Assembly: GCF_026967985.1 (NCBI RefSeq)
Contig: NZ_JAPVBJ010000009.1
Span: forward strand, 186,001-250,000
Direction: 5' to 3'
Length of the DNA stretch: 64,000 bases
Origin: Modestobacter sp. VKM Ac-2984
Lineage (GTDB): Bacteria; Actinomycetota; Actinomycetes; Mycobacteriales; Geodermatophilaceae
This document shows, piece by piece, positions 1 through 10,614 of the stretch (position 1 is its first letter; every line of letters starts with the position of its first letter). Both the position numbers and the translations under genes were made by a program. The notes below the pieces were generated by a model. That model did no database searches. It was not told where the DNA came from and saw only the letters and a list, made by a program, of their open reading frames with translations.

Positions 1-733
1 CGTTGGCACCGATGCCCAGCTTCGTGTGCAGGGTGGTGGCGAACGCGGCGTAGCTGTCGTGGGTCTTCAGCCCCGGGAAGGCGGCCTTGAGCGCCTTGGG
101 CACGAAATGCTGGTCACCGGCGCCGATGTGCTCGGCCAGGTCGGCGAAGTCGAGCACGCCGTCGTAGGTGGCCATCCGCATCGTCACCTGACCGCTGACC
201 TGACGTGCTCGGGCGGGCACGTAGTAGACGCGGAACGCGGTGAACCGCCGGCCGTGGTCGTCGATGAACGTCATCCCGATTGCGCCCCACGTGGCGGTGC
301 GCTCTCCGCGCAGCACCTTGGCCGTCTCCCGGCCATCGGCGTCCGCGGTGGTGTCGGTCTGCCCCCGCAGGTAGCTGAGCAGGTTGCGCTGGTCGGCGCT
401 GCGGGCGCGCCCACCGACAGCGTCGTTGGACGCGCCGTTGAAGGAGGTGTCCGAGGGCATCATCAGCGCGATGTAGGCGTCCAGCAGCGTGCTCTTGCCG
501 GTGCCCGATGCGCCGGAGATGAGGGTCGCGCCGGGGTGGAAGTCGAACCGGACGCGACCTTCGAACCCACCCCAGTTGACCAGCTGGAAGGTCTCGGCCT
601 TCCACTGCGTGGTGCCCTCGGTGGCGCCGTCGACGTGGAACAGCAGTCCGGCGTCGGCCACCAGGCCGTCGGATGCCGGCCCGACGGGACGTGGTGCGGG
701 GGCGAGCAGATCGCCGAGTTCACTGGTGGTCAT
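1..733 (-). CDS. jetC: Wadjet JetC-like SMC ATPase, N-terminal fragment (cut by window edge)
   Basis: First 244 codons of an ATP-binding protein read from an ATG at 733. The frame stays open to the window edge. A P-loop (GASGTGKST, residues 74-82, Lys80) follows a strand typical of SMC heads (FQLVNWGGF, about 49-57). This layout matches JetC, the MukB-like SMC subunit of Wadjet, whose ATPase drives extrusion of and action on small circular DNA. The start lies 4 bp after the JetB stop, so it is translated with JetA and JetB. The Walker B, signature and coiled-coil parts lie outside the window. Identity rests on the P-loop together with the DUF3375-DUF4194 neighbours. Confidence 0.85.
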   Translation of the reverse strand, partial: MTTSELGDLLAPAPRPVGPASDGLVADAGLLFHVDGATEGTTQWKAETFQLVNWGGFEGRVRFDFHPGATLISGASGTGKSTLLDAYIALMMPSDTSFNGASNDAVGGRARSADQRNLLSYLRGQTDTTADADGRETAKVLRGERTATWGAIGMTFIDDHGRRFTAFRVYYVPARARQVSGQVTMRMATYDGVLDFADLAEHIGAGDQHFVPKALKAAFPGLKTHDSYAAFATTLHTKLGIGAN

Positions 734-737
734 CGGG

Positions 738-1580
738 TCAGCTCTCGTTCTCGTCGGCCGCGACGCCGCCGGGCTCGGCGGACGTGTCGGCACCGGCACC
801 GGTCCCGGTGTCGGTGTTGGTCGAGCCGTTGTGCTCGCGCAGCCACGTCAGCAGGTGCTGCAGCTTGAACATCGGCAGCAGCACCTCGATGGCGTTGCTG
901 ACCTCGAACCGGTCGGCGTCGCTGCGGCCGACGAGCAGGCCTGCGCTGTAGAGGGTGTCGATGGCCCTGGCGGCGCGGCGGGCGTCACCGGCCTGGTCGG
1001 TGGCGTGCGCGGGCCGGTGCTGAGCGACGTACTCGAGCATGTCGAGGCGGTCGACGAACACCCGGTCGGCGCCGGCGGCCTGCTCGCTACGGAACCGGGT
1101 TCGGAGGAACACCAGCAGGATGGTGTCCTCCCTGCCCCAGGGCGCGTCGTAGAGCAGCGTGGGGAATGGTCGGCCGCCACCTTCGGGGCTCACCTGCCGC
1201 TTGTAGGCGATCTCCCGCTCACGGTCCAGGTGCAGCTCGAGGAACTGGTCGTTGAGCCGGGCCCGGATGGGGCGCGGATTGCGGGTCAGCGCCTGCCACT
1301 CCTTGGGATGGGTCCGCCCGCTGATGAACCGCTGTTTGAGCAGCACGACCAGTGCCTTGCGCTGGTCCAGTTCCAGACCGCCCTCATCGCCCTCGAACAG
1401 CGAGACGCTCGCGGTGCTCTCCCGCTCCGGGTCCTCGACGTCCAGCTCGTCGAGGCCCGGGGTCTCCCCGCCGGGCGCCTCGAGGCGATCGAAGCCGCCC
1501 CCGCGCGCATCGTCCCGGTAGCTGTCGTCGATCGAGACGTCGTCCGGGGCGATGTCGGCGGGCTGGTCGAAGTCGTTCAT
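738..1580 (-). CDS. jetB: Wadjet JetB (DUF4194, MukE-like)
   Basis: A 280-residue protein, acidic at both ends, with a central winged-helix-like core (about residues 65-250: LDQRKALVVLLKQRFISG at the start, FEVSNAIEVLLPMFK near the end). This is the DUF4194 pattern of JetB, the MukE-type subunit that bridges kleisin and SMC heads in Wadjet complexes. Its ATG overlaps the JetA stop by 4 bp (ATGA) and its stop is 4 bp before JetC, giving the canonical A-B-C order. The tail (about 252-280) is low-complexity Thr/Gly/Ala/Asp and probably disordered. Family assignment is by recognition of sequence style and gene order, not by a search. Confidence 0.85.
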   Translation of the reverse strand: MNDFDQPADIAPDDVSIDDSYRDDARGGGFDRLEAPGGETPGLDELDVEDPERESTASVSLFEGDEGGLELDQRKALVVLLKQRFISGRTHPKEWQALTRNPRPIRARLNDQFLELHLDREREIAYKRQVSPEGGGRPFPTLLYDAPWGREDTILLVFLRTRFRSEQAAGADRVFVDRLDMLEYVAQHRPAHATDQAGDARRAARAIDTLYSAGLLVGRSDADRFEVSNAIEVLLPMFKLQHLLTWLREHNGSTNTDTGTGAGADTSAEPGGVAADENES

Positions 1581-3142
1581 CGGAGCTCCTGCGTCCCGGG
1601 CCGGTCGGCCGGAGTGTGGTCGTGGCTGACGTCGGTGTCGGGGTTGTCGGCGGTACCGGGGTCGGGTGTGGCACGTCCGTCGGGGTGCGGTGCCACGCGG
1701 GGCACCGCGAGCTGGCGAGTGGTCCCGTCGGGCCGGATGGTCCGGTAGGTCTCCACCAGCTCGTCGCGATCCATGCCGGGTAGGTTGGTCGCCAGGTGCA
1801 GCAACCCGAAGATCTCCACCGGGCGTCGCAGCGCCGGGTCCAGGCCGTCGAACATCGCACCCAGCGAGGTGAGCGGATCCGGCCCGGTGAGCGCCTGGGT
1901 CAGCTCCTGGCGCAGCGCGTCCAGCGACGGACCGCCCTGGGCCAGCAGGTCGGTCAGCGACACCCCGTCGGGTCGGTGCTCGCTGACGTCAGCCAGTGGC
2001 GGGGGCGCTGCGTCGTTGTCGGTGCTGTAGAACCGCTCCCGCAGGTGGAAGAACTCGGCGCGGTGCGGGAGCAGGTCCAGCGGGACGGTCGCCCGCGGGC
2101 CGGCGGTTTTCATCCAGGTGGCCAGCTCCGCGTCGAGCTGACGCAGGGTGGAGTCCAGCTCCCGGTCGCGGGTGATGTCGTGGGTGACGATGTACTCCCG
2201 CAGGGTCGCCGTCACCCGGCTGCGCCGGGTCAGCACGCGGTCCAGGCCGCCGCGGATGAGGGCGACGGTGCCGCGCAGCTCGCGTCGGTCGACGTCGAGC
2301 AGGATGTCGTTGGCCAGCGGGTGGGCCAGCAGGGCGGCGAGGTCCTCGCGCAGCTGCAGCAGCAGCGCGTCGTCGCTGAGCAATGCCAGCGCTCCTTCGA
2401 ACGCCCGCCCTTCGGCGGTCGCTGTCATCAGCGAGTCAGCGCGCGCCAGGTAGTCGTCGATGACCTCACCAGCCGGCCGCTCCTCGGCGCGAAAGGAAGC
2501 CAGGATGTCGCTGCGCAGACCCGTGTAGGCCTCTTCCACGCGGGCGAAGTCGCTGGGCAGAGCCGCGATGAGGCTGATGAGTTCACCGAAGCCTTCGAGC
2601 AGGTAGTCCGGTGACACCTGCTGCAGCTCTCCGCCAGCCAGCAGCCGGTCTCGTTCAGCGCTCAAGCGGGTGATCTCGCTGTCGAGGATGTCGACGCGGG
2701 CAGCGCGGTCGGGGTTGACGTCGGTGTTGAACCGGCGGACGGCGTTGACGATGGTGGCGATCCGGTGCTCGGACAGGCTGGCCCGCTCACGGGTGAGGCC
2801 GGTGACCAGGGTGAGGGCGTCCTGGGCGTGAGAGGTCAGCGCGTAGACCTCAGTGCCGTCGTCGTCGGTGCTGCGCAGCAGCCACTGCCCGCGCATCCAC
2901 CGCAGGCACAGCTCTCGTCCAGAGCCGGTCGGCAGGTCGGTGACGCCGGCCAGGCGTAGCTCGTCGAGGTAGGTGTCGACCTGGTCGTGCAACCGCGGGG
3001 CGGGGATGCTGCGGACGTCGCGGCCGAAGGAACTGCGGAAGATCGCGATGATCACCGGAGCGAGCTTCTGATGCAGCAGCGTGAGCGTGGGCTGCTCGAA
3101 GGCGCCGCGGACGCGGGCGAGTTCGCCGGCGATGTCGCTCAC
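1577..3142 (-). CDS. jetA: Wadjet JetA (DUF3375, MukF/kleisin-like)
   Basis: A 521-residue protein with the DUF3375 layout: an N-terminal segment with LLHQKLAPVIIAIFRSSFG, a winged-helix part (about 30-125, RELCLRWMRGQWLL), a helical middle with short coiled coils (about 150-380), then a C-terminal winged-helix part (about 430-485, PVEIFGLLHLATNLPG) and a polar tail. JetA is the kleisin-like subunit of Wadjet, which restricts small circular plasmids. The GTG start at 3142 has GAGGAG about 6 bp upstream. It is the first gene of the Jet operon and follows a 312-bp gap, so it may have its own promoter. JetD, the TOPRIM nuclease subunit, would lie beyond the left edge. Confidence 0.88.
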   Translation of the reverse strand: MSDIAGELARVRGAFEQPTLTLLHQKLAPVIIAIFRSSFGRDVRSIPAPRLHDQVDTYLDELRLAGVTDLPTGSGRELCLRWMRGQWLLRSTDDDGTEVYALTSHAQDALTLVTGLTRERASLSEHRIATIVNAVRRFNTDVNPDRAARVDILDSEITRLSAERDRLLAGGELQQVSPDYLLEGFGELISLIAALPSDFARVEEAYTGLRSDILASFRAEERPAGEVIDDYLARADSLMTATAEGRAFEGALALLSDDALLLQLREDLAALLAHPLANDILLDVDRRELRGTVALIRGGLDRVLTRRSRVTATLREYIVTHDITRDRELDSTLRQLDAELATWMKTAGPRATVPLDLLPHRAEFFHLRERFYSTDNDAAPPPLADVSEHRPDGVSLTDLLAQGGPSLDALRQELTQALTGPDPLTSLGAMFDGLDPALRRPVEIFGLLHLATNLPGMDRDELVETYRTIRPDGTTRQLAVPRVAPHPDGRATPDPGTADNPDTDVSHDHTPADRPGTQELR

Positions 3143-3454
3143 GGGTCTCCTCGGCTGTCGGGGTCGGTGGCGTCAGGGCTTGCGCAGGCACGGTGCTTGG
3201 ACGCTGCCGCGCCACAGTCATCCGCGGAGTCGCTACCGACTGCTCACCTCGCCGTTTGCCGGATGGTAGGGGCAGCCGACGACAGTTCCTGGCCATTCGG
3301 AACGGTTTCGGCTCGCCGCCGTCCGCCGGGGGTGCCGCCGCCGTTGTCGGCGATGACCAGCGCCCACGGCTGGCAGCGCGGCAGCTCGACCGGACCCGCT
3401 GATGCCGCAGCCGAAGCCGGGCCGGCGCCCTCGATCGACGAAGAGGTCCGGCGG
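3143..3454. other. Intergenic region upstream of jetA
   Basis: This 312-bp stretch separates the nuclease-like gene stop from the JetA start. No reading frame here has family character. It probably carries the Jet operon promoter. A TANNNT-like hexamer (TACCAT on the minus strand, 3268-3263) is present, but I see no convincing -35, so I do not mark a promoter. Confidence 0.4.
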
Positions 3455-4912
3455 CTACAGCTTGGACGCCGACTGCTTCGGCCGCGCGTCGATGAACCGA
3501 GGGGTGATGGTCCAGCCCGCCTGCGCCGACAGTGTCTCGCACGTCTTCTTGACCCGGTCGAGGCGGAGGGGGTCGAAGTCGTCGTCGGTGTACCCGACGC
3601 ACACGTAGTAGCCGCAGCGGATCTGCTCGCTGCGCTGGTACTGCGGCAGCTGCGCCTCGACCCCCCGGACCAGCTTGGTGCTGTGCATCTGCTTGACCTC
3701 GATGAGGGCCCGGTGCTGCCAGCCGACCGAGAACTTGAAGTCGACCGGCCCCCGGCCGACGTTGGCCTCGCGGCTGATGTCGATGCCGGCGGCACGGCAC
3801 GCCTCGACCCACTGCACACCGGCGACAGCCTGAACGATCTTCTCCTGCCGCGGCTTGGTGTAGTCGTCGTTCCACAGCGCCCGCCACGCGTCGGTGTCCT
3901 CGACAGCGTGCTGGAACCGGTCGACGAGCGTCCCGACCCAGGCGCAGAACTCCTCCTCCGTCGTCGGCTCGGCCAGCGGTCCGGCGTCGGCCGCCAACCG
4001 TTGGGCGATCGCCCGCCCCTGCTCGAACCAGCCCACCTTGAGGGCAGGGTCGGCGCGGACGTCGTAGGGCTGGTGGTCGTCGGCGGCGATCTGGTCGACG
4101 TACTCGAACGCGCTCTCCGGGCTGCGCCGCGCCAGCCGACGACCTGCCTCGACGCGACCCCGATGGTCCAGGGCCTCCGCGAGGTCGATGTTCAGGTCGT
4201 CCCGCAGGTCCTGATCCACGTGAGCGTCCGCCCACGACCAGAACCCATCGGGTGTGACCCGCTGCGGGATGTCCTGCAGGAACCGCTCCGGGGTCAGCAG
4301 CACCGCCCCCTTCGTGACCGGGCTCCGGGGCAGCGACAGCCGGGCATCCGACCACCGGCCCGTGGTCGGCTGCCAGGACGCATTCCGGACCGTCAGCAGT
4401 CCGGTCTTCACACCCCGCTCGGTGCACACAGCCCGCGTGTAGGCGATGAACCGGGCCTTGAGGATGTTGCACAGCATGTCGCTGATCCGGTCGACGCCCA
4501 GGCCCGGCACGAACAGGGCGAAGACGTCGACGTAGTCCACACCGCGCTCTACGGCCCGGGTCATGATCTCCAGCGCCTCGGCCATCGCCACGGCGAAGTC
4601 CGGACCGGTGCCTGAGCCGTTGGGCGAGCCCATCGACATGCCGAGCGCGAACTCCTTCGGCTCGGGGAAGGTCAGCAGCCGCAGCGCCTTCCTCCAGTAC
4701 GGAGAAGCGGTGTTCCCGCCGGCGGTGCGCACTAGGTTGCGGCACAGGGTGAAGAACCCGATGACGTCGTCGTGGGAGCCGGCGAAGATCGGGTCGCTGT
4801 CGTCGAAGACGAGGAACGGGTCGACGTAGAGCGGCGTGTCCTCGGATAGGACCGGGTTGAACCACTCGTCGTCCTCGCGGTGCTCGATGGCGACGAGCTC
4901 GCTGAACCTCAT
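3455..4912 (-). CDS. Putative PD-(D/E)XK nuclease-domain protein of unrecognised defence-like module
   Basis: A 485-residue protein. The ATG at 4912 (MRFSEL) overlaps the stop of the preceding gene as ATGA, which decides this start over one 14 codons upstream. The first 50 residues contain DTPLYVDPFLVFDDSD, and a conserved-looking helix GVDRISDMLCNILKARF lies near residue 140. The last 100 residues carry a PD-(D/E)XK-type site: Asp391, then 13 residues, then Glu405-Val-Lys407 (ALIEVKQ), followed by QLPQYQ, a Q/Y element common in such nucleases. A DNA- or RNA-cleaving activity is inferred. It is the third gene of the XRE/637-residue/485-residue unit and lies immediately upstream of jetA. I do not recognise a named system for it. 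Confidence 0.6.
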   Translation of the reverse strand: MRFSELVAIEHREDDEWFNPVLSEDTPLYVDPFLVFDDSDPIFAGSHDDVIGFFTLCRNLVRTAGGNTASPYWRKALRLLTFPEPKEFALGMSMGSPNGSGTGPDFAVAMAEALEIMTRAVERGVDYVDVFALFVPGLGVDRISDMLCNILKARFIAYTRAVCTERGVKTGLLTVRNASWQPTTGRWSDARLSLPRSPVTKGAVLLTPERFLQDIPQRVTPDGFWSWADAHVDQDLRDDLNIDLAEALDHRGRVEAGRRLARRSPESAFEYVDQIAADDHQPYDVRADPALKVGWFEQGRAIAQRLAADAGPLAEPTTEEEFCAWVGTLVDRFQHAVEDTDAWRALWNDDYTKPRQEKIVQAVAGVQWVEACRAAGIDISREANVGRGPVDFKFSVGWQHRALIEVKQMHSTKLVRGVEAQLPQYQRSEQIRCGYYVCVGYTDDDFDPLRLDRVKKTCETLSAQAGWTITPRFIDARPKQSASKL

Positions 4913-6822
4913 CTCGTGGGCGTCGGACGCAGCGTGTCCAGAGCGGGCTCCCACCCCTTGTCCATCAGCTCCTGCACCCGCTGCGTACGACGGGGACGGA
5001 GCCTTGCGTCCTGGAGCAGGTAGTCCCGCAGGCTCATGCGGTGGAAGACGGCGCGCTCCTTCCCGGCGAGCACATCACGCATGCTGGGCCCGCCCTGCTC
5101 TGCCAGTCCCTCCAGCATGGCGAGTTCCACCGTGTCGACGACCTCGAGCGGGGCCGTGTCGGGATCGGCGAGCAAGCCCTTCTCCCGAACGCGCGAGCGC
5201 AGCAGCTCGGTGGAGACCGGGTTGACGGGGAAGCCCTCCGCGGCGACGAGCAGGGGGTAGAAGCGGCGGACCGCGTGCGGCGGCCGGCCGGTCAGCGAGG
5301 ACTCCTCCGCGCGCAGCGCAACGATCGTCGAGTGGAGCTGCTCGGCCTTCGCCACCAGCTTGTTCAGGTCGCCGCTCAACGCCTCGGGGGACGCTGCCAC
5401 GGAACCGCGCGTCAGCTTGCTGGTGGTGACCTCGACGACCACCCAGGCGTCCCCGTAGTCCACCGCAGCGTCGCAGATCCGACGCCCCGGCCTGCCGAAC
5501 GCCCCACGCAGTTCGATGTCACCGAACACCCGAGTGCTGCCGGGCCCCGTGCCGACCAGGGAGGTGAGCACTTCGAGCGCAAGCATCTCGGCCAGGTGTC
5601 GGACGCAGTCCAGGACCTGGTTCTTCAGCTTTCGGTGGGTGTGGTCAGGGCTCTGGTCTAGCGCGTCGACGAGGTCGAGCAGTGTCAAGCCACCGAAGAC
5701 GTGCCGGAGGAGCAGGTTCGAGTCCAGCAGGAGCACCGACCCGTCCTCTAGGCGGACAACGGGGTACCGCTCCAGGGTGTCGAACGCCCAGACGAAAGCG
5801 GGATCGGCTTCTCCCAGCAGTCCGGTACGCAGCGTCTGCACGTCGGTCGCGAAGAGCCGCAGCGTCGCCTCCAGCCGCTCCGAGGACCAGTGCATCGTCT
5901 CTCGGAGTACGTCCCACGACACGTGCGGTGTGCCGTTCTGACCGAGGGTCCACAACCACATGGTGAGGGCCTGCAGGTCGTTGAGTGTGACACCGGTGAC
6001 GTCGCGGAAGGTCTGCTCGAGGTTGATCACCTTCTTGTCGTGCGCGCGCTCGACGGGCAGTTCGACCCACAGACGCACGAAGCGCGCCATCAGCTGGTCG
6101 ACGTCCACAGGCTGGTTCAGGTGGTGGTTGGCGACCAGGTAGCTGCTGAGCTCGGTGACCCGCGTGTCGACGATCTCGTCGTCATCGGCCGGCTGGGCAC
6201 GGGGTCTCTCCAAGACCTCGACCGCGCCGAACAGGGCCCCGGGGACCTGTCCGGCCTCGACCTCCGGCGCGACCGTATCGGGGCTGTGCGCGGCAGCCAG
6301 CTTGGCCAGCACGTACAGCGCTTGTGGAACCACCAACCGACGCGCCGGGCTACGCAGCAGGTTCTTGGCTCGCTGGAGCGCGTCCCCGTCCAGCCACCTG
6401 TCCGCGAACTGCAGGTCCGCATCCCGGTCCGAGACTTCCAGGTCGCGGTAGGGCACGAGGGTGGAGGCCACGAAGAACAGCACCTCGGCGAACGGGAGGC
6501 GCTTCAGCTGGTCCACGGTGTAGGCCAGTCCCGGCGCGACCCCGAACAGCTCCCGACCGGTGATGTACACGGCGGCCATGTCGAAAGGCCTGGGTGCGGC
6601 ACCCGCCGGAACGAGTAGGCCACTCGACAGCTGAACGAAGTTCCCGTGCACCGCGCGGGCGGTGCTTCCGGGAACCATGACACGGTCCTCCTCGACGGTG
6701 GTCATCCGAGACCGCAGTTCAGCTGGCTCCCGGTCGGTGACGAGTCGCCGTAGACGATGGAGGCCGGTCTGGAGTTCCGCCGGCGTCCGCGGGTTGAAGA
6801 CGGGAGCCTCGTCCGCAGTCAC
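4909..6822 (-). CDS. 637-residue protein with degenerate nuclease-like motif, unknown function
   Basis: Read from GTG 6822, whose codon overlaps the stop of the XRE gene (GTGA). An AGGAGG lies about 10 bp upstream, and the frame upstream of this point is only a shadow of the XRE gene. No named domain is recognised. Residues 50-420 look like a mostly helical globular protein. Near residues 450-470 the text CDAAVDYGDAWVVVEVTTSK resembles a PD-(D/E)XK core: Asp451, Glu464-Val-Thr466, with the usual Lys replaced by Thr and a Lys only at 469. A downstream KLVAKAEQL helix fits that fold. It may be an inactive or altered nuclease-fold subunit partnering the next gene, with which it overlaps by 4 bp. 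Confidence 0.5.
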   Translation of the reverse strand: MTADEAPVFNPRTPAELQTGLHRLRRLVTDREPAELRSRMTTVEEDRVMVPGSTARAVHGNFVQLSSGLLVPAGAAPRPFDMAAVYITGRELFGVAPGLAYTVDQLKRLPFAEVLFFVASTLVPYRDLEVSDRDADLQFADRWLDGDALQRAKNLLRSPARRLVVPQALYVLAKLAAAHSPDTVAPEVEAGQVPGALFGAVEVLERPRAQPADDDEIVDTRVTELSSYLVANHHLNQPVDVDQLMARFVRLWVELPVERAHDKKVINLEQTFRDVTGVTLNDLQALTMWLWTLGQNGTPHVSWDVLRETMHWSSERLEATLRLFATDVQTLRTGLLGEADPAFVWAFDTLERYPVVRLEDGSVLLLDSNLLLRHVFGGLTLLDLVDALDQSPDHTHRKLKNQVLDCVRHLAEMLALEVLTSLVGTGPGSTRVFGDIELRGAFGRPGRRICDAAVDYGDAWVVVEVTTSKLTRGSVAASPEALSGDLNKLVAKAEQLHSTIVALRAEESSLTGRPPHAVRRFYPLLVAAEGFPVNPVSTELLRSRVREKGLLADPDTAPLEVVDTVELAMLEGLAEQGGPSMRDVLAGKERAVFHRMSLRDYLLQDARLRPRRTQRVQELMDKGWEPALDTLRPTPTR

Positions 6823-7529
6823 AGGAGTTCCGCCTCCTGCCGGTTGGCCTCCCCCTGGTCGGCGGAGACGTTCACCCACACGCCCAACGTCTGCGCGAGC
6901 ACGGTGGAGAACCGCCAGAGCGGACTGAAGTCGCCGGTCCGGGCGGCGCGGACGTAGACGGTGCCGTTGAGGTCGACGCGCGGCTCGGTGAGCTCGTGGT
7001 GGCGCGCCAGCGCCGACAGCACCGCCCGGCCGGCGAGGACCTCCTCGCGCGTCGCGACGCGGTCGTGGGTGGCGGGCCGGGCCAGCCCACGGCGGGCGGC
7101 GCGGTCCGTCGGCGAGGGCGGGCGGGGGTCGGCGACCTCGACGATCTGCTCGATGCGCAGGCCGAGGACGGAGCAGACGAGGAACAGGTTGTGGGCGGCG
7201 ACCCACTCCCCCCTTTCGATGCGCTGGACAGTGTTGAGCGCTACCCCTGCAGCGTCGGCGACATCGCCCTGCTCCCAGCGACGTGCCCGCCGCCGGTCGG
7301 CCACATCCCGGGCGATCGCCTGCCACCACTGGTAGGCCTCGCGCAGCGGCCGTGGCTCAACGCCGCTGTAGTCGCGGAACGGCCAGGCGTACCCCGAGCC
7401 CGCCGTCGCCGGCGCCGGCGGGGCGTAGGCCTGTCCGGCCACGCGGCCGCCGGTGCGAGGCCGCTGTGCGACCTGGTCGCCGCTGGTGAGCCCGTCGTTG
7501 CCGTCGTGCTGCCGCGGGGCCTGGCTCAC
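6819..7529 (-). CDS. XRE-family helix-turn-helix regulator (first gene of the unknown module)
   Basis: A 236-residue protein from a GTG start with GGAGGAG 7 bp upstream. The first 60 residues are Gly/Pro/Ala-rich and probably disordered. An HTH_XRE domain occupies about 77-132, with the recognition helix around ALNTVQRIERGEW. The C-terminal part (about 150-236) is a small domain of unknown type ending in VWVNVSADQ. It probably controls its own operon: a strong inverted repeat (7604-7641) lies 75 bp upstream. The stop overlaps the start of the next gene, so the three proteins are translationally coupled. This is the usual arrangement for regulated restriction or abortive-infection operons. Confidence 0.7.
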   Translation of the reverse strand: MSQAPRQHDGNDGLTSGDQVAQRPRTGGRVAGQAYAPPAPATAGSGYAWPFRDYSGVEPRPLREAYQWWQAIARDVADRRRARRWEQGDVADAAGVALNTVQRIERGEWVAAHNLFLVCSVLGLRIEQIVEVADPRPPSPTDRAARRGLARPATHDRVATREEVLAGRAVLSALARHHELTEPRVDLNGTVYVRAARTGDFSPLWRFSTVLAQTLGVWVNVSADQGEANRQEAELL

Positions 7530-7561
7530 CGGGCACTCCTCCGTGTCGGGACCATGCAGGA

Positions 7562-7593
7562 CCGCCCCGGCCCTCGGAAGAGGGCCGGGGCGG
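7562..7593 (-). terminator. Perfect 14-bp GC hairpin between nrdJ and the defence island
   Basis: Arms 7562-7575 and 7580-7593 are perfectly complementary around the loop GGAA. The hairpin lies downstream of the nrdJ stop (7729) on the minus strand and has no T-tract, as is usual for GC-rich actinobacterial terminators. It ends 33 bp before the XRE gene start, so the island promoter must lie in the few bases after it, or read-through occurs. Confidence 0.7.
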
Positions 7594-7603
7594 CTGGAGA
7601 GCG

Positions 7604-7641
7604 ATGTATCAAGATCGCTTCGTTAGGCGAGCTTGATACAT
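7604..7641. promoter_or_regulatory. 15-bp inverted repeat, candidate XRE operator or island boundary
   Basis: Arms 7604-7618 (ATGTATCAAGATCGC) and 7627-7641 pair with one mismatch across an 8-bp spacer. The half-sites are centred about 23 bp apart, roughly two helical turns. The element is clearly AT-richer than its surroundings. It sits between nrdJ and the XRE gene and could be the regulator's operator, a second terminator, or a relic of island insertion. Confidence 0.5.
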
Positions 7642-7728
7642 AACGTCACTGCAAGCCGCGGTGACATTTGGACGAGCCCGCCGGGACATTCCGCGAGAAT
7701 CCGCAGGACATCCCGGCGAGCCTCGCCA

Positions 7729-10614
<2,886 letters not shown>

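Follow-up and report, generated by a model that had tools for sequence, protein, structure and literature searches.

Gene content beside nrdJ

The stretch of DNA analysed here, the window, comprises 64,000 bp of the genome of Modestobacter sp. VKM Ac-2984 (C21:186001-250000); negative window positions denote the contig to its left. Near its left edge lies nrdJ, which encodes a class II (B12-dependent) ribonucleotide reductase (7729..10614, minus strand, start codon provisional; assigned by search and Pfam). Window positions 1-7728 are very probably the nrdJ-proximal cargo and the right end of a 34.9-kb Tn7-like transposon for which nrdJ is the attachment-site gene; this is the best explanation of the locus, inferred steps included. 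The original prediction, made from the window, described a compact defence island and missed the transposon because most of the element lies outside the window.

Leading away from nrdJ on the minus strand are the genes for an XRE regulator (P0003, 6819..7529; Pfam HTH_3), which is the first gene inside the nrdJ-proximal end, a 637-residue protein (P0002, 4909..6822) and a 485-residue protein (P0001, 3455..4912), followed by JetA (DUF3375, 1577..3142), JetB (DUF4194, MukE-like, 738..1580) and the N-terminal part of JetC (SMC/MukB-like ATPase, 1..733, running on to C21:183260). Open reading frame coordinates agree with the predicted close packing of both units: XRE/P0002, P0002/P0001 and JetB/JetA each overlap by 4 bp, and a possible JetC start at 733 lies 4 bp past the JetB stop. 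From the P0001 gene down to the JetA start there are 312 bp. Both units are bounded by the transposon terminus at 7728, which abuts nrdJ (7729 onwards).

The identification of Wadjet was also correct. PADLOC profiles matched JetA1 (1.1e-177; Pfam DUF3375), JetB1 (1.7e-92; Pfam DUF4194) and JetC1 (1.2e-87 for the part in the window, E = 0 at full length), and JetD1 (6.4e-99) was found beyond the window edge. Because JetC is completed and JetD comes next outside the window, the type I Wadjet is complete, with jetA-jetB-jetC-jetD in one operon. With Wadjet confirmed and the neighbouring genes of defence type in appearance, the description as a compact defence island stands.

Transposon ends and target duplication

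The element measures 34,857 bp, from window position -27,128 to 7,728, and its left end starts at C21:158872. It begins with TGGCGAGGCT and finishes with AGCCTCGCCA, 10-bp terminal inverted repeats that give it 5'-TG...CA-3' ends. A 5-bp duplication, TCAGC, flanks it on both sides and includes the nrdJ stop codon (7729..7733; other copy at C21:158867-158871). By sequence comparison, the right end (7641..7728) is an array of ~22-bp repeats with a GGACAT/GTGACA core that closes on the terminal ...AGCCTCGCCA. The element of Modestobacter excelsi (genome G305) is 29,195 bp long, has the same TGGCGAGGCT/AGCCTCGCCA ends and is flanked by TCAGC on both sides. TG..CA ends, subterminal arrays and a 5-bp duplication are thus found together in both elements. 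In G487 and G336 the right end has TA in place of CA.

Two further features lie inside the right end. The first is a terminator-like G+C-rich hairpin (7562..7592), seen also in related sequences by alignment and comparison of flanks. The second is a subterminal palindrome, TGTATCAAG...CTTGATACA (7605..7640), with a related copy inside the left end (C21:158927-158965). Such palindromes lie inside both ends of the VKM Ac-2984 and G305 elements, and variants occur at the right ends of G508 and G509. The palindrome was considered as the right terminus and rejected, since the repeats run on to 7728 and the matched left end fixes the terminus. The hairpin was at one stage taken for core genome, on the strength of similar sequence in G296, G300, G301 and G302; this was dropped and those sequences were reread as relic ends. 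A repeat-periodicity statistic was rejected as a test for arrays because it is not specific.

The tns cassette

Left of Wadjet, four overlapping plus-strand genes encode proteins of 205, 569 (Mu-transpos_C), 258 (AAA domain) and 1116 (helix-turn-helix, HTH) residues, which we call tnsA, tnsB, tnsC and a putative selector from their sequence features. TnsB of VKM Ac-2984 matches Mu-transpos_C at 3.5e-9. Searched against the PDB, a profile of 11 TnsB sequences matched a TnsB structure best (7svw, 4.6e-31; we take this to be ShCAST TnsB) and Tn7 TnsB at 9.8e-8. The presumed DDE triad (D154/D233/E269) is present in 11 of 11 sequences, as in a TnsB-type DDE transposase. TnsC matches AAA_22 (6.8e-10), and its Walker A residues G41, G46 and K47 are invariant in all 12 sequences aligned, as in a TnsC-type AAA+ ATPase encoded next to tnsB. 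Eight of 12 aligned TnsA-like proteins carry a PD-(D/E)XK motif; TnsA of VKM Ac-2984 has no Pfam match. By analogy with Tn7 TnsA mutants, the elements with motif-less TnsA, if still mobile, would be expected to transpose replicatively.

nrdJ as attachment site across genomes

A TnsB search of 112 genomes of the bacterial family gave matches in 16 genomes, at 19 places representing 18 genes (two places are halves of one gene). With nrdJ of VKM Ac-2984 as query, nrdJ was located in 24 of 24 genomes, the match in G050 being weak; Pfam class II reductase domains were recorded in two of the homologues (G226 and G118). At 11 of the 18 TnsB loci nrdJ lies on the same contig, ~3-18 kb away, and the cassette is always convergent on the nrdJ 3' end (VKM Ac-2984, G305, G509, G508, G487:C5, G500, G336, G498, G502, G503:C79 and G541). 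G226, from another family, has a cassette likewise placed at nrdJ, and G118 has selector remnants and P0001 there. Counting VKM Ac-2984, 12 genomes therefore have related cassettes at nrdJ, all in the one orientation, and a 13th has remnants; three families are represented. The TnsB locus at G316:C66 stops at the contig end inside sel1, one of the two selector genes described below, and the match in G332 is a weak fragment.

In a phylum-wide sample of 396 genomes TnsB matched at 15 places, of which those in VKM Ac-2984 and G226 are at nrdJ. The other 13 are matches of E 4.7e-20 or weaker; the 11 that were tested, in seven genomes, are not at nrdJ (the nrdJ match in G050 is weak, and G164 and G460 fell outside the test). 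The TnsB profile matched 11 loci in a scan of species genomes; eight of these belong to genomes already counted. One contig from a metagenome-assembled genome (MAG; L132) again carries a 3' part of nrdJ; a second MAG contig (L134), 5.4 kb long, has no such part. In Phycicoccus sp. Soil802 (L137) a repeat array follows nrdJ, and the contigs break there.

At L123 (G497:C11, ~2154-8946 with the locus reversed) a related TnsABC-sel1-sel2 cassette converges on a nearby gene that looks like one for replicative DNA helicase (dnaB, named by eye). GTGACA repeats occur near the 3' end of this dnaB-like gene, where no duplication was found; judging by this layout, the cassette may represent a sister family that uses a different attachment gene. 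At L030:3607-8901 (G118) nrdJ is a 1764-residue frame with intein splicing and LAGLIDADG domains, and a right-end-like array is still at its 3' end.

A candidate target selector

In most relatives the selector is encoded by two genes, sel1 (388-411 residues as called) and sel2 (~190-240 residues, with an HTH). It is fused in the clade of VKM Ac-2984; in VKM Ac-2984 itself it is the single 1116-residue frame, and the equivalents of this frame in G305 are genes of 738 and 397 residues. Reading the sel1 sequence alone gave a by-eye impression of a tyrosine-recombinase core.

There is an unlikely alternative to which we give some weight, namely that sel1 and sel2 are accessory regulators and that the target is chosen by TnsC itself or by a TniQ too divergent to be recognised. 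The structural searches are compatible with it, since the sel1 profile gave two chance-level PDB matches only. The TniQ searches are too: PF06527 had no match in 13 of 13 genomes, but had none in its 14 controls either. No TniQ match at E <= 0.001 was seen in P0010 of VKM Ac-2984 or in the two selector proteins of G305. The distribution of the genes argues the other way. Apart from the tns genes, sel1 and sel2 alone were noticed to be shared by the complete cassettes at nrdJ, whereas two of six TnsB loci elsewhere (L121 and L122) lack both. The other four have both (L120, L123), end within sel1 (L118) or have only a weak sel1 (L124).

Stacked, empty and relic sites

The left flank of the element, in both VKM Ac-2984 and G305, is a right-end-like array of another element. 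In VKM Ac-2984 this array lies directly left of the element (C21:158770-158866, window about -27,230 to -27,134) and resembles the G500/G502 type; in the 8.8 kb further left, no tns gene was noticed among those called. In G118 two facing ends are parted by TCAGC, ~5 kb from nrdJ. Contig C192 of Blastococcus sp. MG754426 (G503; locus L120) shows an element, then an array, then ATCAGCTG and one end of another element, so that the family gene on C192 looks like a displaced insertion. The end of the second element resembles the nrdJ-side end on contig C79 of the same genome. Four junctions (VKM Ac-2984, G305, G118 and L120) thus show insertions stacked at nrdJ, with newer elements apparently entering between nrdJ and their predecessors.

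Fourteen same-genus regions were compared for empty sites. In G308, G313 and G303 only 120-320 bp separate nrdJ from sequence homologous to C21:147-150 kb, and there is no cassette. In G296, G300 and G301 there is end-like sequence beside nrdJ and no TnsB match; we read these sequences, and that of G302, as probable relic ends.

Cargo exchange and the XRE gene

Cargo, taken as the genes between selector and nrdJ, differs from element to element (in G500, G502, G503, G508, G509 and G541, ten chosen proteins were searched). The element of VKM Ac-2984 holds Wadjet and P0002-P0001, and that of G305 a reverse transcriptase and a Ser/Thr kinase. Genes of the cyclic oligonucleotide-based antiphage signalling system (CBASS) occur in G508 (CBASS-type cyclase) and G509 (cyclase plus a two-transmembrane, 2TM, effector). 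G502 has an AAA/HEC-04-like protein, G503 an OLD-like protein, G541 a DUF1883-TIR protein and G500 type III restriction-modification. G226 and G118 have P0001 homologues, and G487, G336 and G498 have no called gene. A defence-type gene is therefore present in 10 of 13 elements, if G226 and G118 are counted for their P0001 candidate. The VKM Ac-2984 cargo probably serves in plasmid restriction, by Wadjet, together with nuclease-based defence against phages or plasmids, by P0001 and perhaps P0002.

Further cargo was seen left of tnsA, namely an exonuclease (RNase_T) fused to an Lsr2 DNA-binding domain (C21:167567-169105) and a HIRAN protein (C21:169529-170155). In Blastococcus sp. KM273128 a JetC-like protein with 25% identity to that of VKM Ac-2984 (L131:272-3814) lies ~5-6 kb beyond tnsA of an nrdJ element.

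The XRE gene is found near nrdJ in four elements (VKM Ac-2984, G305, G508 and G509), and the cargo into which it reads differs in each. The G305 homologue (81%) occupies the same position in the element and stands in front of the kinase gene, with the reverse transcriptase gene between it and nrdJ; those of G508 and G509 precede the CBASS genes, in one case with a 413-residue gene between. The last ~80 residues of XRE resemble the 397-residue selector-associated protein of G305 (38% over 79 residues in the alignment). In the loci compared, the XRE gene is part of the surrounding transposon and not of the P0002/P0001 unit.

It is improbable that Wadjet and P0002-P0001 came by homologous recombination or in a second mobile element, which would leave the Tn7-like cassette as a bystander relic. 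The frameshifted selector and degenerate TnsA of VKM Ac-2984 would suit such a history, as would the relic-like right ends without a TnsB match in G296, G300 and G301. However, all the genes lie between matched inverted ends with matched duplications, and the corresponding slot in G305, bounded by ends of the same kind, holds different cargo.

P0001 and P0002

P0001 matches the PADLOC profile PDC-M36A (1.9e-21), which makes it a member of this candidate defence family by profile match; the match is limited to residues 16-225, about half of the profile, and the description of the nuclease part comes from the alignment made here. The original statement that the neighbouring unit matches no nameable system was thus half right, as P0001 belongs to a family that PADLOC lists. 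P0001 has no Pfam match, and PDC-M36 is named in no paper found in the openly licensed literature. In the alignment its C-terminal part carries D391, E405, K407, Q421 and Y425. The first three are all kept in 9 of 11 aligned proteins from genomes and plasmids (those of Calothrix and Legionella lack them) and in 8 of 10 proteins of an alignment that includes viral-contig relatives. We therefore read P0001 as a putative PD-(D/E)XK nuclease with a QxxxY motif. Nine of the 11 aligned proteins have the motif S[AG]S[KN] at the extreme C-terminus (window 3458-3475 in P0001), well away from the catalytic residues.

Matches to P0001 are present in 8 of 296 phylum-wide genomes including VKM Ac-2984 (several are fragments), 20 plasmid records and 10 viral contigs; none was found in phages, and a single-sequence search of genome contigs returned 27 pattern matches and no relative. 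Nine plasmid regions were inspected and eight contain a homologue, four of them with restriction- or defence-type genes nearby: SIR2 and DUF3427 (Rhodobacter), methyltransferase-helicase-GIY-YIG genes in one run (Paenarthrobacter), an Eco57I-type methylase, a helicase and AbiE (Legionella adelaidensis), and an XRE/M78 protein that is RmrA according to PADLOC (Roseomonas). Recombinases, transposases, toxin-antitoxin-type or unannotated genes lie alongside in the other four.

P0002 has a nuclease-like D...ExT motif, D451...E464-x-T466, present in all three aligned proteins. Its similarity to NCBIfam GapS1 is weak (E 5.9e-4), and at 18.8 bits against a cut-off of 320 bits it falls far short, so it was not filed as GapS1. 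P0002 matches occur in 4 of 97 genomes in a sample of relatives (VKM Ac-2984, one full-length protein at 50% identity and two fragments) and in one plasmid record. Neither P0002 nor TnsB was found in viral contigs, and PDB sequence searches with P0001, P0002, P0008 and P0009 gave no match.

When flanks were compared outside VKM Ac-2984, P0001 was present at none of four P0002-match loci (L027, L023, L034, L035) and P0002 at none of ten P0001 loci. A PADLOC label of DrmD for a protein of L027 was judged false, its Pfam domain being IstB_IS21. The XRE-P0002-P0001 trio had been proposed to be a regulated restriction or abortive-infection locus. Its defence-like character holds, given the PDC-M36A match and the four plasmid homologues near restriction, SIR2 or Abi-type genes. 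Its status as one conserved system is not supported and was rejected, as P0001 and P0002 homologues lie apart in the other loci compared and XRE homologues precede other cargo. The trio is therefore an assembly seen once, not a recurring system. A resident island in which the trio is one dedicated restriction or abortive-infection system beside an independent Wadjet, with nrdJ a chance neighbour, is very improbable: the 4-bp overlaps suggest translational coupling, P0001 matches a defence candidate family and P0002 weakly matches GapS1, but the separate homologues, the XRE genes heading other cargo, the transposon ends and duplication at nrdJ and the related cassettes that recur there all tell against it.

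A model for insertion at nrdJ

In the Tn7-like transposon model, sel1 and sel2 would bind nrdJ at its conserved 3' coding end and bring in TnsC, and with it TnsB. TnsB would then join the ends across TCAGC. We propose that joining across this sequence regenerates the TGA stop and so leaves nrdJ intact, and that the rebuilt site lets further elements land between nrdJ and an older insertion, so that defence islands grow by stacking. The element-encoded XRE at the nrdJ-proximal end may control whichever defence cassette is downstream; in VKM Ac-2984 this would be the P0002 and P0001 nuclease-like proteins, with Wadjet further on.

Several observations weigh against this interpretation. No transposition was observed. 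Matched pairs of ends come from two elements only (VKM Ac-2984 and G305), and no left end was recognised in the fetched stretches of G509, G508, G487, G500, G336, G498, G502, G541 and G226. Periodicity of the repeats is weak for VKM Ac-2984 (48/500 shuffles) and G508 (78/500), and two cassette-free sites score as periodic (G308, 1/500; G298, 2/500). The inner end at G118 shares little beyond TGTG with the nrdJ-side end. The TnsB relatives at G497:C11, G538:C19, G487:C4 and G298:C63 are not at nrdJ, and that at G497:C11 has both sel1 and sel2. TnsA of VKM Ac-2984, G305, G508 and G509 is without the PD-(D/E)XK residues. Compared with G305, the selector gene of VKM Ac-2984 contains one extra nucleotide, which causes a frameshift between the 738- and 397-residue equivalents. 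Together with the motif-less TnsA, this means that the VKM Ac-2984 element may be immobile. We infer the selector role of sel1 and sel2, the control of cargo by XRE, mobility today and the pairing of ends at G118 and L120.

A broader proposal, which we offer tentatively and hold slightly more apt to fail than to stand, is that these elements form a TniQ-free Tn7-like branch of Actinobacteria. A two-part selector of a new kind, made up of sel1 and the HTH protein sel2, would read the conserved nrdJ 3' end and direct insertion to the stop codon. As insertion would rebuild the site and leave it open to further elements, nrdJ would act as a ratchet for stacking defence genes, and the fixed XRE would be a common switch for the interchangeable cassettes.

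On this view, what looks like an ad hoc defence island is produced by a machine that can be defined, whose ends and target are known and whose cargo can be exchanged. For Tn7-type insertion in high-GC actinobacteria, this adds a new chromosomal landing site and possibly a target selector of a new class. The growth of defence islands becomes testable, as stacked junctions are directly visible, and the nrdJ 3' flank can serve as a search key for new defence systems such as the P0001 family.

Comparison with known systems

Wadjet is unexceptional here, with all four type I genes in order and strong PADLOC matches; nothing is unusual except its status as transposon cargo. The accessible text of a survey of 6,549 Tn7-like transposons reports defence cargo that includes Wadjet, with JetD in 34, and an Actinobacteria-dominated Tn7-like clade without a characterised member (Benler et al. 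2021, PMC8649781); that Tn7-like transposons carry defence genes is therefore already known. Neither "ribonucleotide" nor "nrdJ" is present in the main text of that survey. The attachment sites named in the accessible parts of four texts (PMC10293859, PMC8649781, PMC11406308, PMC12915292) include glmS, tRNA genes, parE, guaC, yciA, ffs, rsmJ and comM. In the openly licensed literature searched, as far as its text is accessible, nrdJ is not named as a Tn7-type attachment site, which is weak evidence of absence. Tn7706, as described in the accessible text of PMC12915292, has tniQ and is found mostly on plasmids.

Another parallel is Tn6022, in which, according to the accessible text, TnsF and not TnsD is the proposed sequence-specific selector, working with a short TniQ and targeting comM (Faure et al. 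2023, PMC10293859). Both elements would then use a protein other than TnsD to select a sequence. In contrast to Tn6022 as described there, no TniQ is recognised here and nrdJ is left intact; sel1 is likened to TnsF by role only.

The nrdJ element shares with Tn7 (TnsABCD, attTn7 at glmS) a TnsA/B/C cassette, a TnsB-type transposase, TG...CA ends, ~22-bp subterminal repeats, a 5-bp duplication and a target site at the 3' end of a conserved gene, which insertion leaves intact. Tn7 inserts some 25 bp downstream of its gene, with the tnsA-side end facing the gene, whereas the nrdJ element inserts at the stop codon itself and its selector-side end faces the gene. Sel1 and sel2 are the proposed selector in place of TnsD, and the TnsA active site is lost in four nrdJ elements including that of VKM Ac-2984. 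Judged on sequence features, the element differs from Tn7 in its attachment gene and in the absence of a recognised TniQ, and it is Tn7-like by its predicted transposase and ATPase, its ends and its duplication.

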